NCBI GenBank assembly: GCA_026392145.1
Contig: JAPLCS010000045.1
Span: 1-8,790 of the forward strand
DNA length: 8,790 nucleotides
DNA from: Fimbriimonadales bacterium
Lineage (GTDB): Bacteria > Armatimonadota > Fimbriimonadia > Fimbriimonadales > Fimbriimonadaceae
Direction: 5' to 3'
Part shown: piece after piece, positions 1,318-7,062 of the stretch
Position numbering within the stretch: position 1 is the stretch's first letter
Layout: each line of letters begins with the position of its first letter
Notes under the pieces: generated by a model
Told to the model about the DNA's origin: nothing
Seen by the model: only the letters and a program-made list of their open reading frames with translations
Database searches by the model: none
Position numbers and translations under genes: made by a program

Positions 1318-2769
1318 TCAGTCGCCTTCGACATGCAGCGTCTTTTCGTGGGTGTACAACGCCGTCCCCTTCGCCGCTCCGCGAGGCTTCCGAACATACT
1401 TCTTGAGCGTGTAATCCACCGCCACAAACCCAGCATGCTTCTGCGGTGAATGTTGAACCGCCACCTTTGCCGCAAACAACATTGCTTCCCGAGAAACCGA
1501 CTCAGGTTTTCCACCCGTTCGAATAATCACGTGAGCACTGGTATGACCCCGAACGTGCAACCACCAATCATTGCCCTTCGCCACCCTCAAAGTCAAATAG
1601 TCATTTGACTCAGAATTCTCGCCATACAGAATCACCGATCCATGCGGTCCCATCAACTCCTTAATCCGGTGACCCTCATACGGCCGCTCCGCTACTCCTT
1701 GGTGAGAGACCGTCTGCTGATGAAGCCACTTGCACTTCGAAGCCTGCTCCTTTAATGTCTCCAGCGCATGAATCGTCTTGGCTTCCAGCACCGAAAAGAG
1801 CAAAGCCTCAACTCTCTCCTTGTCAGCCTCCAATCGTGCAATTTGGTCGGTCACCAGTCCCATTCTTCCCTTCGCCCTTTTCGCCTTGTCGAAGTACCGA
1901 AGCGCATTCTCCTTCGCACTCTCCTCCGTATTCAAACGAATCGTCAACGGAGTCCCATCATAATCCTGAGTTTCGAACTGAGCAGGTCCCGCCGCCATAT
2001 GACTGGCAAACGCAAGGAGCAACTCCCCGTATCGCTGCCACAACGCAGCCTTCCCTCCCGCATCTCGAGCCTCATACAGCGCCGCTAGAGAAGTCTCTCG
2101 CGCGAGAATCACACGCTCTAATTGAGCCACCAGTCCATGCCGAATAGAATCCGCCAAAGCCTGCGGAATCGCCACATTAAAGTGGTTCTCCAAAGCAATA
2201 CTCAATGTCTCCCGAGGCACCCAAGTTGGAAACTCAGAGCTCAAATCAATCGGATAAGCGCCTACTCCCGCCGCAAAACCAGGATTCAATATCAATGGTC
2301 GCTCCCCGCGTAGCTTCGAGTGAACCAGCGTGCCAATCCGCTCAAACGACGAAAAGTCGTTGATATCCTTCCCCTCTTTCAGAACAGGCGGCCAAAAATA
2401 CTCGGTATTAGGAAGGATAGGACGCTTACTTTTCGTCGCCCCCACCCACATCGCTGCCGCAACCACCTTAGCATGCTCATCAATCAATATCAGGTTAGAA
2501 TGCTTCCCCATAAGTTCGGCAATCAAACGATGTCCGCCAAAATCGAGTACCAACACCCGATCCCCCGCCTTCATCTTAATTGACTCGAGAGTTGAGCCCT
2601 TTAACCTCGCCCGCAAAGTCGCACAAAACACCGGTGGCTGCGATGGAGCACTCTCTCTACGAGTCGAAAAATGAACCCGAAAATGCACAGGATGACAACT
2701 TAGTAGTAAATGCTGTTCAATTTCGCAACCAATCGCGGAAAGAGTTAAAGCATCAAACGGAATCTTCAC
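1318..2769 (-). CDS. rqcH: NFACT family ribosome quality-control protein (RqcH-like), short N-terminus
   Basis: This 483-residue protein is an NFACT protein (Rqc2/NEMF/RqcH; older name FbpA, fibronectin-binding). RqcH binds stalled 50S subunits with peptidyl-tRNA and adds C-terminal alanine tails. Visible parts are: NFACT-N with PPVFCATLRARLKG (about 45-58), GDRVLVLDF (69-77) containing the Asp-Arg pair D70-R71 needed for tRNA binding in RqcH, and RLIAELMGKHSNLILID (81-97); a YFWPP element (124-128); an alpha-helical coiled-coil middle (about 280-350); and NFACT-R with YLTLRVAKGNDWWLHVRGHT (391-410) and VDYTLKKYVRKPRGAAKG (451-468). It starts at GTG, 35 bp after the proteasome alpha-like gene. 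It is about 80 residues shorter than B. subtilis RqcH (about 570), and the segment that normally holds GRIxKIYQP is absent between FDALTLSAIGCEIEQH and LLLSCHPVHFRVHF. Family assignment is firm; activity is uncertain. Confidence 0.9.
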   Translation of the reverse strand: MKIPFDALTLSAIGCEIEQHLLLSCHPVHFRVHFSTRRESAPSQPPVFCATLRARLKGSTLESIKMKAGDRVLVLDFGGHRLIAELMGKHSNLILIDEHAKVVAAAMWVGATKSKRPILPNTEYFWPPVLKEGKDINDFSSFERIGTLVHSKLRGERPLILNPGFAAGVGAYPIDLSSEFPTWVPRETLSIALENHFNVAIPQALADSIRHGLVAQLERVILARETSLAALYEARDAGGKAALWQRYGELLLAFASHMAAGPAQFETQDYDGTPLTIRLNTEESAKENALRYFDKAKRAKGRMGLVTDQIARLEADKERVEALLFSVLEAKTIHALETLKEQASKCKWLHQQTVSHQGVAERPYEGHRIKELMGPHGSVILYGENSESNDYLTLRVAKGNDWWLHVRGHTSAHVIIRTGGKPESVSREAMLFAAKVAVQHSPQKHAGFVAVDYTLKKYVRKPRGAAKGTALYTHEKTLHVEGD

Positions 2770-2804
2770 AACTTTTCAAACGGCAAAACAAGTTCGCTTA
2801 AGAA

Positions 2805-3470
2805 TCAGACCGCAATTTCTCGGAGCACCTGCTCACGGTGTGTCCCTCGCTCCATCAGCACTGCTTCAGGCGTCAACCCATCCAGGCTCACTTCCTCTCC
2901 GCTGTTGCCTGCCGCCGCTTCAAGCCACAAATACTTCAGTTTGTCCACCGCAGTTTCAACCGTTGCATCTACGGGAATCAGTTCGGTCAGTTTTGGACCA
3001 AGATAATTACGTCCTGACAACACCACACTTTCACGCTGAAGGTGGTAGTCGCCGTCATATTCCACGGTGTAATAGTGATCGTCTCCAGGCTTCTCACCTA
3101 ACTCAGCAAACAAGCAATTCGCCAAGATTGGAGCATAAGAAAAATCGCCAAAAGCTTTTTTAATTGGTGCACTCACCGAGGTCACCACTCGCTGAATCGT
3201 CACATCCTTTTCACTCCGTGTGTAGCCCTCTCGGTGCGCAAATTCCACCGCCATCACCCGAATCGATTCGATATCAGACTGCTGTCCCAATCCCGCAAAC
3301 GCCAGTTTGTCGTAGATCTCAAAAATTTTCTGACTCTGCCGACGATAGGTAAAAATCAAGATTCCAACATTCAAAGAAATCGCAAGCACAGGCGCACCGT
3401 TTTCAAGGCGACCACCAATATAGGCAACTCGGTTGCTCATCGCTTCTTGCCAATCGTAAGGATTCATCAT
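2805..3470 (-). CDS. prcA: 20S proteasome alpha-type subunit (PrcA-like)
   Basis: The 221-residue product aligns end to end with actinobacterial proteasome alpha subunits (about 248 residues), which form the outer rings that gate the 20S chamber and dock ATPase activators. Matching landmarks are an N-terminal NPYDWQEAMSNR (3-14) like the PrcA gate and H0 helix region, QKIFEIYDKLAFAGLGQQSD (47-66), VEFAHREGYTRSEKDVT (75-91), ANCLFAELGEKPGDDHYYTV (117-136) and EYDG (137-140). K48 in QKI..IYD lies where the pocket lysine that binds activator HbYX tails is expected; this is alignment by eye. There is no propeptide or N-terminal catalytic Thr as in beta subunits, so it should be structural. It lies 8 bp after purD and 35 bp before the NFACT gene on the same strand, so co-transcription is likely. 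No prcB, pup-like or ATPase gene is in the window. The C-terminal tail is shorter than in PrcA. A divergent proteasome-like Ntn homologue is the main alternative. Confidence 0.72.
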   Translation of the reverse strand: MMNPYDWQEAMSNRVAYIGGRLENGAPVLAISLNVGILIFTYRRQSQKIFEIYDKLAFAGLGQQSDIESIRVMAVEFAHREGYTRSEKDVTIQRVVTSVSAPIKKAFGDFSYAPILANCLFAELGEKPGDDHYYTVEYDGDYHLQRESVVLSGRNYLGPKLTELIPVDATVETAVDKLKYLWLEAAAGNSGEEVSLDGLTPEAVLMERGTHREQVLREIAV

Positions 3471-3478
3471 GTTGGTTT

Positions 3479-4723
3479 CTACGCTCCGATATCGGTTCTA
3501 AAGTGCATTCCTTCAAAAGAAATACTATCTATTGCATCATACGCCAGTTGAGTCGACTCCTTCACCGTCGCTCCCACCGCTGAAACTCCAAGAACCCGTC
3601 CTCCATTCGTCACGAGTTGCCCATCTTTCAATACTGTCCCTGCGTGGAATACCTTAACGTTTTCACCCGACCCAGTCTTTCCAATGTCCCCAATGGTAAT
3701 CCGCTTACCCTTGGCGTACTCACCCGGATACCCACCGCTCGCCAACACTACCGTCGTCACCGCATTGTCCAAAACCTCAACGGGACGAATGGGTTCTCCA
3801 CATGCAACGCACATCAACGCTTCCGCCAACCCACTTCCAAGCCGTCTCATCACCGTCTGTGTTTCAGGGTCGCCAAACCGAACGTTGTACTCCAAACACT
3901 TTGGTCCCTCATCGGTCATCATAATCCCACTAAACAACACTCCACGGTATCCAATGCCCCGTTGAGTGAGTTCCGCAATCGCTGGTCGCACCACACTCTC
4001 TTCAACTGCTTTCACCACCTCAGCGGTTACCAACGAGACGGGAGAATAAGTCCCCATTCCACCGGTATTCGGTCCCTCGTTACCAGTCCCCACTCGCTTA
4101 TAATCCTGAGCCACAGGCAAACTAAAAATGTCCCCTTCAGACACAAGCGTCAAGAGCGAAAATTCATAGCCAAACAACCGCTCTTCAATCACAAGGGTGT
4201 CGCCAGCACTTCCCAACGCCTTAAGTGCATCTACCGCGCTCAAAGCTTCTTCCAAAGTGGAACAAACTACTACTCCCTTGCCAAGAGCATTACCACTCGC
4301 CTTAACCGCCACCTGCCTCCCCTCGGCGAACATCGTGCGGCAGGCGTCCTTCGCTCTCTCAGAATCAGATTCGGTAAAGGATTTGGCCGTTGGAACTCCC
4401 GCCGCCTCCATAATCTCCTTCGAAAATGCTTTAGATCCTTCTAACTGAGCCGCTGCTTGATCAGGGCCAAAAACTCGAATCCCATGGCTCCGTAATTCAT
4501 TGCCTCTCCCCAAAACCAAAGGGTCCTCGGGTCCAAAAACAACCAAATCTATCTCGTTTTCTTGAACAAATTGAACCGTTTCCTCAACGCTCATCGTACC
4601 CACGCAGGCAACATCTTCAGCAATTCCTGCATTCCCGGGCGAGCAAAAAACGGTGGCGTCTTGTGACAACTTCCAAGCTAAAGCGTGCTCTCTTCCGCCC
4701 CCACCAATTACCAAAATCCTCAT
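3479..4723 (-). CDS. purD: Phosphoribosylamine--glycine ligase (GAR synthetase)
   Basis: This 414-residue cytoplasmic enzyme joins 5-phosphoribosylamine and glycine using ATP, the second step of de novo purine synthesis. E. coli PurD has 429 residues. Motifs in order are GGGGREHALAW (7-17), FGPEDPLV (63-70), GSKAFSK (96-102), the ATP-grasp lysine region KASGNALGKG (141-150), AQDYKRVGTGNEGPNTGGMG (205-224), GYRGVLFSGIM (258-268), EYNVRFGDPETQ (278-289) and ASGGYPGEYAKG (328-339). The reading frame is complete. The ATP-grasp loop departs from the usual KADGLAAGKG (Asp to Ser, LA to NA), and GRGNEL at 72-77 is unusual, but the downstream ATP and metal-binding motif is intact. It is the first gene of an apparent operon with the proteasome alpha-like and NFACT genes. 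A TAACCT hexamer ends 8 nt before the ATG in the 32-bp gap shared with the divergent SnoaL-like gene. Confidence 0.95.
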   Translation of the reverse strand: MRILVIGGGGREHALAWKLSQDATVFCSPGNAGIAEDVACVGTMSVEETVQFVQENEIDLVVFGPEDPLVLGRGNELRSHGIRVFGPDQAAAQLEGSKAFSKEIMEAAGVPTAKSFTESDSERAKDACRTMFAEGRQVAVKASGNALGKGVVVCSTLEEALSAVDALKALGSAGDTLVIEERLFGYEFSLLTLVSEGDIFSLPVAQDYKRVGTGNEGPNTGGMGTYSPVSLVTAEVVKAVEESVVRPAIAELTQRGIGYRGVLFSGIMMTDEGPKCLEYNVRFGDPETQTVMRRLGSGLAEALMCVACGEPIRPVEVLDNAVTTVVLASGGYPGEYAKGKRITIGDIGKTGSGENVKVFHAGTVLKDGQLVTNGGRVLGVSAVGATVKESTQLAYDAIDSISFEGMHFRTDIGA

Positions 4724-4755: not shown

Positions 4756-5184
4756 ATGGTTGAGTCCTTAATCCAATCTTATTTCGATGCTTTTAACCGA
4801 CACGATTTAGACGGCATGCTTGACACACTACACAAAGCAGTCTGGCACGATATCAACGAAGGCGGAGTGGAGATAGGTAAAGACGCTTTTCGAGCATTCA
4901 AAACCCATATGGACCGTTGCTACCGGGAGCAAATCGATGAACTCCTCATCATGTCCAACGGTCGAAGAGGAGCAGCCGAATTCATCGTCCACGGTGAGTA
5001 CATTGCCACAGATGAAGGACTTCCACAAGCGAAAGGGCAAAAGTACTCCATCCCGGCAGCCGCTTTTTTTGAGGAACAAGACGGAAAACTCATCCGAGTG
5101 ACAAGCTACTACAATCTCCGACATTGGATTGAAACCGTCACTACTGCGGAGTCAACTGAGGTGTCATCTCCGCAGGATCACTAA
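4756..5184 (+). CDS. SnoaL-like / NTF2-fold protein (steroid isomerase-related)
   Basis: The 142-residue product has the pattern of the NTF2-like superfamily, steroid delta-isomerase-related or SnoaL-like branch: an N-terminal helix SYFDAFNRHDLDGMLDTL (8-25), acidic and aromatic cavity residues (WHDINEGG, 30-37), GKDAFRAFKTHMDRCYRE (41-58), AAEFIVHGEYIA (73-84) and the C-terminal strand RVTSYYNLRHWIETV (114-128). Members are small cytoplasmic cone-shaped proteins with a hydrophobic pocket. The family is functionally diverse, so no substrate is proposed. The conserved fold ends at about residue 128, and the remaining 14-residue tail is exactly the part that overlaps the opposite-strand DUF5665-like gene. 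The gene is divergent from purD at 32 bp. Confidence 0.8.
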   Translation: MVESLIQSYFDAFNRHDLDGMLDTLHKAVWHDINEGGVEIGKDAFRAFKTHMDRCYREQIDELLIMSNGRRGAAEFIVHGEYIATDEGLPQAKGQKYSIPAAAFFEEQDGKLIRVTSYYNLRHWIETVTTAESTEVSSPQDH

Positions 5185-5546: not shown

Positions 5547-6479
5547 CTACTGAGCAACTGAGTGATAGGTGGTTTGCCACTCAGTCATTTCTTCCATAGC
5601 AAACGCAGGCCCCTCTCTACCTACTCCACTGTTCCCCGACCCGCCATAAGGAGCAGAATCTAGCCGAGTATTAGGTGGAAGATTAACCAGCAAACCTGGA
5701 TAATTCAAGGCTCTAAACTCACAAATCTCAGCTTCACTGTGAGAAAAGATAGAGGCATGAATCCTGTTCTGAGAGCGTGACAAGATGCTCACGAGCCTAC
5801 TCAACTCATCGTACTTATGGAGCACTAACAAAGGACTAAACGCCTCATTCCCGATTAGTTCACAATCTGGTTTCACATTCTCCAGCAAGGTGGGTAACCC
5901 AGCCCTTGCGTTCTCATGCCTCGGAGCCCGAGTAACTACAGCCCCATCCAAGATCGCGTTCTTGACTCTCAGTTCAAACTTGTCAAGCGCATCCTGGTCA
6001 ATGAGCGCAGAGCAAATTGAAAGCGCACTATCAGGACTTGCAACCAGCGAGCCTTCAACAACACGTTGCCGAAGCAGGCTTGCCAACTTCTCATAAACCA
6101 ACGAATGAATGTACACATGTTGAGCCGAAATACAAGACTGTCCACCAAATCCAAATCCGCTCACCACCAAAGCCTGAGCCGTAGATTCGACATCAGCGGT
6201 TGGAGTCACAACAACGGGAGCATCACCACCAAGTTCCAAGGTCATCGGCAATCTCGGAAAACATTGGCGCAAATGCCAACCCACCTCAGCAGACCCCGTA
6301 AAACTCAACATCTTCACCCTTTCGGCACGAAGGGCTTTCATCACCAAAGGATTCGGTCCCACCCATGTATTCAGTACTCCAGCAGGAACGCCTGCTTCAT
6401 GCAACAGCAAAGCCAGCGTAAGAGTCGAAAGTGCAGCTTTGGGTGAAGGCTTCAAGACTATGGTATTCCCACTCGCCAA
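5547..6479 (-). CDS. Aldehyde dehydrogenase, C-terminal catalytic fragment
   Basis: This frame, openable from TTG at 6479, holds the larger part of the enzyme in 310 codons. It contains the second copy of ASGNTIVLKPSPKAALST, LLHEAGVPAGVLNTWVG (25-41), SFTGSAEVGWHLR (59-71) of the cofactor site, the general-base Glu in LELGGDAP (81-88), the nucleophilic Cys in FGGQSCISAQHVYIH (111-125, C116) and the C-terminal oligomerisation end. FGGQSCIS and the surrounding sequence resemble the lactaldehyde/GapN-like ALDH branches more than the classical betaine-aldehyde type, but substrate cannot be assigned. Independent translation is unlikely: TTG is an in-frame leucine codon of the intact family sequence and no ribosome-binding site precedes it. 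Confidence 0.6.
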   Translation of the reverse strand: MASGNTIVLKPSPKAALSTLTLALLLHEAGVPAGVLNTWVGPNPLVMKALRAERVKMLSFTGSAEVGWHLRQCFPRLPMTLELGGDAPVVVTPTADVESTAQALVVSGFGFGGQSCISAQHVYIHSLVYEKLASLLRQRVVEGSLVASPDSALSICSALIDQDALDKFELRVKNAILDGAVVTRAPRHENARAGLPTLLENVKPDCELIGNEAFSPLLVLHKYDELSRLVSILSRSQNRIHASIFSHSEAEICEFRALNYPGLLVNLPPNTRLDSAPYGGSGNSGVGREGPAFAMEEMTEWQTTYHSVAQ

Positions 6480-7062
6480 CGCAGGAGCTATCTTGTGAGC
6501 GACGAGTCGAAAGTGCAGCCTTGGGTGAAGGCTTCAAGACTACGGTGTTCCCACTCGCCAACGCAGGAGCTATCTTATGAGCGGCAAGATTCATCGGAAA
6601 ATTAAAGGGAGTGATTGCAAAAACCACACCTCGTGGTTGTCTCTTTCGCTCAACTCTTAACTTCCAGTCAAAGCTTGTTTCTTCCCTAGTATCAAAAAAT
6701 CCGTGCTCAAGTGCCCCTTGAGCGGCACGAAAAGTTTCCACCATTCGAGTCACTTCAAAGCCCGCCATTAAAATCGGCTTCGCAACTTCCTTGGAAATGA
6801 GTTCAGCAAGTTCTTGATGCCTCTCACTGATTAAAGCAATGATTCGCTCAAAAAGTTGTATACGTTCCTCAATGCTTGAGAGCTTCCATGTATGAAACGC
6901 ATCATCCGCCGAAGCAACAGCTGTCAATAATTCTGACCAACCACCCTCGGCGTAGGTACCCAAAACAGTGCCATCCCAAGGTGAACGCGAAATCTCTTTG
7001 CCTACTGCTTGATCGCACACACCGCCAATTCGGTGACCAGAAATGAGCAGTTCAACATGCAT
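6397..7062 (-). CDS. Aldehyde dehydrogenase, N-terminal fragment
   Basis: Of the 221 codons only the first 186 are genuine ALDH. They include the start of the NAD-binding domain, EERIQLFERIIALISERHQE (65-84), ELISKEVAKPI (87-97), the PRGVVFAITPFNFPMNL segment (143-159) with the conserved Asn N154, and HKIAPALASGNTVVLKPSPK (162-181), the cofactor-binding strand with the conserved Lys and Pro. Residues from about 187 on are an out-of-frame reading of the second repeat copy and are not ALDH-like. Without the catalytic Cys and Glu this piece would be inactive alone. The ATG at 7062 has no Shine-Dalgarno sequence. TTCTTG and TACTTT spaced by 15 bp at about 35-60 bases upstream are a weak promoter candidate. 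Confidence 0.6.
   Translation of the reverse strand: MHVELLISGHRIGGVCDQAVGKEISRSPWDGTVLGTYAEGGWSELLTAVASADDAFHTWKLSSIEERIQLFERIIALISERHQELAELISKEVAKPILMAGFEVTRMVETFRAAQGALEHGFFDTREETSFDWKLRVERKRQPRGVVFAITPFNFPMNLAAHKIAPALASGNTVVLKPSPKAALSTRRSQDSSCVGEWEYHSLEAFTQSCTFDSYAGFAVA
6422..6585. repeat. 82-bp near-perfect tandem direct duplication within ALDH
   Basis: Positions 6422-6503 and 6504-6585 are adjacent direct copies of 82 bp. I count five mismatches by eye. In the ALDH frame three are synonymous (His CAC/CAT, Asn AAT/AAC, Lys AAA/AAG) and two are conservative (Ile/Val, Val/Ala). Because 82 is not a multiple of three, the second copy shifts the frame. The largely silent differences show that the copies diverged while both were under protein-level selection, so this is not a fresh replication slip of a single sequence. 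Confidence 0.93.

Follow-up and report, generated by a model that had tools for sequence, protein, structure and literature searches.

A 20S proteasome alpha-subunit gene located apart from its beta partner in an apparent purD-alpha-RqcH operon of Fimbriimonadales bacteria

Why does a gene for a 20S proteasome alpha subunit lie between purD and a gene of the NFACT/RqcH family? The question is raised by contig JAPLCS010000045.1 of a Fimbriimonadales bacterium (assembly GCA_026392145.1), whose whole length of 8,790 nucleotides is referred to here as the window. The window is contig C225 of genome G000, a 2.56-Mb assembly in 437 contigs with 89.88% completeness, and the source genome belongs to the same genus as Fimbriimonas ginsengisoli (Armatimonadota). 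The three genes, together called the triad, are all encoded on the reverse strand. The first is purD, for phosphoribosylamine-glycine ligase (3479..4723; TIGR00877 426 bits, cut-off 288). It is followed after 8 bp, from the purD stop to the ATG of the next gene (3471..3478), by the alpha gene (2805..3470), and after another 35 bp (2770..2804) by the NFACT gene (1318..2769). The first-pass annotation, made from the sequence alone, gave the same two gaps and proposed that chains tailed with alanine by ribosome quality control (RQC) are handed here to a 20S-type proteasome. We consider a different explanation rather probable, namely that the alpha gene of a UBact-proteasome moved into a predicted purD-alpha-NFACT housekeeping operon and is co-expressed with its neighbours without any dedicated hand-off.

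The prcA-like product of 221 amino acids is, judged by its sequence and structural model, a bacterial-type 20S alpha subunit. It scores above the cut-off of PF00227 (28 bits, cut-off 22.4), and its best NCBIfam model is TIGR03691, 20S_bact_alpha, with 63 bits, which is below the 139-bit cut-off of that model; the beta model gives 22 bits. Among solved structures, the nearest by sequence is the alpha subunit of Rhodococcus (PDB 1q5q_A, 1.7e-10). An AlphaFold model (45 sequences) has a mean predicted local distance difference test score (pLDDT) of 90.9 and displays an Ntn fold with the N-terminal H0 helix at residues 4-22. Every one of the 50 PDB entries listed as fold matches is a proteasome chain of an actinobacterium, either M. 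tuberculosis or Rhodococcus. Lys48 is invariant across 45 aligned rows and pairs with the lysine in the QKI stretch of PrcA, which we take to be the residue receiving the ATPase tails. The NCBIfam ranking, the 1q5q_A match, the H0 helix and the fold matches agree on the PrcA-like identity that the first-pass annotation had given.

The NFACT gene, with a GTG start and 483 codons, encodes an RqcH-family protein by sequence, and its Ala-tailing activity is putative. Both domains score over cut-off (PF05833, NFACT-N, 170 bits; PF05670, NFACT-R, 37 bits), and the protein matches RqcH of B. subtilis (7aqc_R) at 6.7e-45. Residues D70-R71 align with D97-R98 of the B. subtilis protein; in 38 aligned rows R71 is invariant and D70 nearly so. 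According to PMC8373112, the D97-R98 pair is needed for tRNA-Ala selection in RqcH, and its replacement ablates RQC function in B. subtilis. With both domains and the D-R pair present, the earlier assignment as RqcH-like holds. The window copy is nevertheless shortened, and does not have the intact N-terminal part of NFACT-N that is expected of RqcH. A near-copy of 511 amino acids, P0121, is identical at 479 of 483 shared positions and contains 28 residues that are absent from the window protein after residue 18, in the N-terminal part of NFACT-N (between 2715 and 2716, reverse strand, following codon 18). The stretch is present in the aligned relatives of the clade. Its absence, which makes RqcH function uncertain in the window strain, may reflect either a deletion in this strain or a fault of assembly. 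Modelled in its shortened form, the protein reaches a mean pLDDT of 85.3 and a predicted template modelling score of 0.60. On the same contig, an aldehyde dehydrogenase gene occupies two frames that overlap (6397-7062 and 5547-6479) and contains an 82-bp tandem duplication at 6422-6585 with 94% identity between the repeats. This feature may itself have arisen through local misassembly or by recent mutation, and it makes local assembly trouble on this contig plausible.

A total of 113 genomes of the order were surveyed, with adjacency judged by coordinates. Alpha was found in 97 of them, NFACT in 106 and both in 93. The two genes are adjacent in seven of the 93 (G000, G001, G002, G003, G009, G015 and G018), all belonging to one genus, of which 20 genomes were included. 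In the other 86 no alpha-NFACT pair was found within 10 kb, the nearest pair on one contig being about 28 kb apart (G043; rows compared by eye), and contig breaks could hide additional cases. An alpha tree was built from 33 rows: the full set of 20 genomes from the genus, 10 additional family members and three outgroups. The seven triad genomes form one side of a branch in this tree with support of 98/95. purD is present in 20/20 congeners; in the 13 that lack the triad, no purD was found less than 40 kb from either alpha or NFACT on a shared contig. The single clade and the separate location of purD in these 13 genomes indicate that the triad arose once. The first-pass annotation would have been undone by an adjacency confined to one genome; seven genomes carry the triad, yet they make up one clade and 7/93 of the order. 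Chance adjacency in a single genome can be ruled out, as the triad occurs in seven genomes with three types of flank. An alpha-NFACT link conserved across phyla was also rejected. Among 38 loci from named genomes (3.7-16.7 kb, mostly Verrucomicrobiota and Bipolaricaulota, with L057 and L066 lacking any gene labels), only L032, which is G003 again, has the pair. A genetic link between RqcH and the proteasome in independent lineages was not encountered in the order survey or these 38 loci, where it is limited to the one clade. In the homologue searches, some alpha and NFACT representatives come with equal values for the longest contig, for example 3898 and 3174741, a hint that further species may have alpha and NFACT on one contig.

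The surroundings of the triad were compared over 10.8-18.0 kb in the six sister genomes and over the 8.8-kb window. Three flanking contexts were found: one in G001, G015 and G018, another in G002, G003 and G009, and that of the window alone, where the triad is bordered on the opposite strand by a gene of MauG type (217-1290) on one side and a SnoaL-like one (4756-5184) on the other. The turnover is incomplete, as G002 has a relative of the window MauG-type gene on the far side of NFACT, about 3 kb away. The gap between purD and alpha is 8 bp in 7/7 triad genomes. In contrast, the alpha-NFACT spacing is -4 bp in G002, G003 and G009 (a TTG start being assumed), 23 bp in G015, 35 bp in the window and 92 bp in G018; G001 was excluded from this range because no common NFACT start codon could be assigned. 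Alpha in L145 (L006) and purD in L146 (L003) were located by tblastn. The sister alpha proteins are 60-68% identical to that of the window, and the sister NFACT proteins 51-57% identical to the full-length near-copy P0121. The constant gap on one side and the variable one on the other suggest that alpha is held more tightly to purD than to NFACT, and the retention of the triad through flank change with a fixed 8-bp gap suggests that selection has acted at least on purD and alpha as a pair.

The position of alpha beside purD contrasts with that in the outgroup families of the order, where all 19 sampled genomes having alpha carry it no more than about 260 bp from beta. In the family of the window, alpha is beside beta in 0/36 genomes (37 sampled, G000 being left out for want of beta), and the nearest pair is about 18 kb apart (G028). 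Among the 38 named-genome loci, beta directly precedes alpha in 26. The neighbours of alpha in the family are varied. Alpha loci were compared in 23 family genomes outside the clade: 11 have an M28 peptidase gene no further than 1.5 kb from alpha (L009, L012, L015-L020, L026, L028, L029), and seven have an M50 protease gene with CBS domains inside the same distance (L010, L012, L013, L016, L018, L024, L028). Genome G006, the sister of the triad clade in the alpha tree (100/99), is among the 11 with an M28 neighbour. Adjacency of beta and alpha in the outgroups, against these varied neighbours in the family, suggests that alpha moved more than once. The M28 peptidase is a commoner neighbour of alpha in the family than NFACT.

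The other components point to the known UBact-proteasome system, to which alpha belongs judging from the genes that accompany it in the genus. In G000, a proteasomal ATPase is encoded on C354 (TIGR03689 442 bits, cut-off 505), and C134 carries a PafA-like ligase that scores 274 bits (253 with the Dop model), neither value reaching cut-off; it is the only Pup ligase found in this genome. A contiguous stretch of about 2.3 kb holds a Pup-ligase homologue, UBact and beta in 6/6 sister genomes (G001 C33, G002 C4, G003 C57, G009 C126, G015 C10, G018 C1). The clustered ligase scores better as Dop in G001, the only genome tested (387 amino acids of the protein), and the clustered product of 60 amino acids is UBact by Pfam PF20513 (75 bits, cut-off 27.8). 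All six sisters also encode a second Pup-ligase homologue and a proteasomal ATPase. Over the genus, UBact was found in 19/20 genomes, G000 being the sole miss, and beta adjoins UBact in all 19; UBact, a Pup-ligase homologue and an ARC-type ATPase were all found in these 19/19. An orphan alpha-like protein, HslV or Anbu, was considered for the alpha gene and ruled out by the NCBIfam ranking, H0 helix and fold matches, and the orphan reading also by the beta-UBact cluster in congeners. HbYX and QYL-like sequences are tail motifs of proteasomal ATPases. The ATPases read here (L157, 4433-6112, and L100-L104) end in -VI, -II or -IV, and no recognisable tail of either type was found on them.

These observations can be put together as follows. 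The alpha gene would have relocated from the side of beta into the predicted purD operon, together with the RqcH-family gene. The triad genes are likely co-expressed from one predicted transcript, so that purD, alpha and NFACT would be read out together and alpha made at a steady housekeeping level along with purD. Alpha rings would dock on beta rings to give an ordinary 20S proteasome, with beta and the ATPase encoded elsewhere, and the ATPase would feed UBact-tagged proteins into it. Independently, chains on stalled 50S subunits would receive Ala tails from the RqcH homologue and then go mainly to ClpXP. The shared position would leave two protein quality-control genes co-expressed with a core metabolic gene, with no dedicated hand-off between them.

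Several results weigh against this reading. A promoter and terminator scan gave counts equal to those in shuffled sequence. The alpha, ATPase, PafA-like and Dop-like proteins all score below the NCBIfam equivalog cut-offs. A triad that outlives its flanks, and the 4-bp overlap of alpha and NFACT in three genomes, are also expected of a functional link between alpha and RqcH. A profile search of G000 with PF00227 returned one match, alpha itself, and no beta; UBact and the Dop-like ligase were likewise not found in this 89.88% complete assembly of 437 contigs. Since beta, UBact and the Dop-like gene form one block in 6/6 sisters, a single missing stretch would explain their absence, and judging from this arrangement an assembly gap probably does. 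The first-pass annotation had counted an alpha-like protein with no partner beta or ATPase as fatal to its proposal. The ATPase is present in G000, while beta is found in the 19/19 other congeners and not in G000 itself.

The gene order might instead be the frozen accident of one rearrangement, in which the neighbours share neither regulation nor function. This conforms to the single origin of the triad, to the differing neighbours of alpha across the family and to the variable spacing between alpha and NFACT. We nevertheless regard it as unlikely, because the triad has stayed intact despite the turnover of its flanks and the purD-alpha gap is the same 8 bp throughout.

More doubtful still is that the proteasome of the triad clade is the sink of bacterial RQC, with RqcH and alpha on one transcript as a parallel of the Rqc2-26S route. 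The Ala tail itself, or UBact added to stalled chains, would then deliver these chains to a 20S proteasome with co-expressed alpha. A UBact-proteasome does exist in the lineage and the D-R pair of RqcH is kept; moreover, the persistence of the triad through flank turnover and the alpha-NFACT overlap in three genomes keep this route open. Against it stand the single origin of the triad, the failure to find alpha and NFACT less than 10 kb apart in the remaining 86/93 genomes or paired in the 38 loci outside L032, the tighter spacing of alpha to purD than to NFACT, and the shortened NFACT of the window itself. A different outlet is also at hand. PMC8138137 states that Ala tails made by RqcH lead to degradation by ClpXP in B. 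subtilis, and ClpP and ClpX are encoded in 20/20 congeners, the two genes being adjacent in G000 on C235. NFACT is moreover kept in G039 (96% complete), where alpha, the ATPase and the Pup ligase were not found, and in G066 (92% complete), where alpha was not found. In G087 and G088, 1.5-Mb genomes with 97% completeness, neither alpha nor NFACT was found, and they are possibly a streamlined lineage that lost both genes. The patterns in these four genomes make co-occurrence no clear argument for a link between alpha and NFACT. The gene identities in the first-pass interpretation are therefore kept, while its delivery of Ala-tailed chains to the proteasome is disfavoured by the UBact tag, the presence of ClpP and ClpX and an adjacency traced to a single event.

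It is very improbable that the window species has alpha without beta, for instance as a ring serving some different role after loss of the proteolytic half: the one PF00227 match, the one Pup ligase and the missing UBact of G000 would fit, but the assembly is 89.9% complete in 437 contigs, one gap would remove the whole block that is contiguous in 6/6 sisters, and the ATPase and PafA-like ligase are kept.

The system can be placed among those already known. The UBact-proteasome system of Gram-negative bacteria was reportedly described by Lehmann et al. in 2017. The lineage studied here resembles it in possessing UBact (PF20513), Pup-ligase homologues, bacterial alpha and beta subunits and an Mpa/ARC-type ATPase, and differs in that alpha is detached from beta in the window family and lies between purD and NFACT in the triad clade. 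In Actinobacteria, prcB and prcA are adjacent. The alpha sequence and fold and the ATPase and ligase families are like those of the actinobacterial Pup-proteasome (PrcA/PrcB, Mpa, PafA, Dop), whereas UBact replaces Pup and the scores stay below the equivalog cut-offs of the Pup system. With B. subtilis RqcH, the window protein shares NFACT-N, NFACT-R and the D-R pair; it differs in the 28 residues absent from its N-terminal domain, in having a proteasome gene and purD as neighbours, and in an activity that is putative. The eukaryotic Rqc2/NEMF-26S route likewise combines an NFACT protein with a proteasome subunit, here side by side as genes only; the tag in this lineage is UBact, and neither an E3-like step nor proteasomal decay of tailed chains finds support here.

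Among the literature matches listed, judged by titles and abstract openings and including few subscription papers, we found no bacterial RQC-to-proteasome route and no proteasome-NFACT operon, nor an alpha gene split from beta in a purD-alpha-RqcH operon. UBact is not mentioned in the text of PMC7203096. The parts, UBact-proteasome and RqcH, are already known, and what appears to be new from the gene arrangement is the location of alpha, without beta, in an apparent purD-alpha-RqcH operon. If tagged chains were passed directly to the proteasome, that would be new as well. If the co-location reflects function, these organisms would let one ask whether ribosome quality control feeds a bacterial proteasome. 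If it does not, they would illustrate clearly how a core gene of the proteasome can be kept in an operon of housekeeping genes while its partner lies elsewhere.

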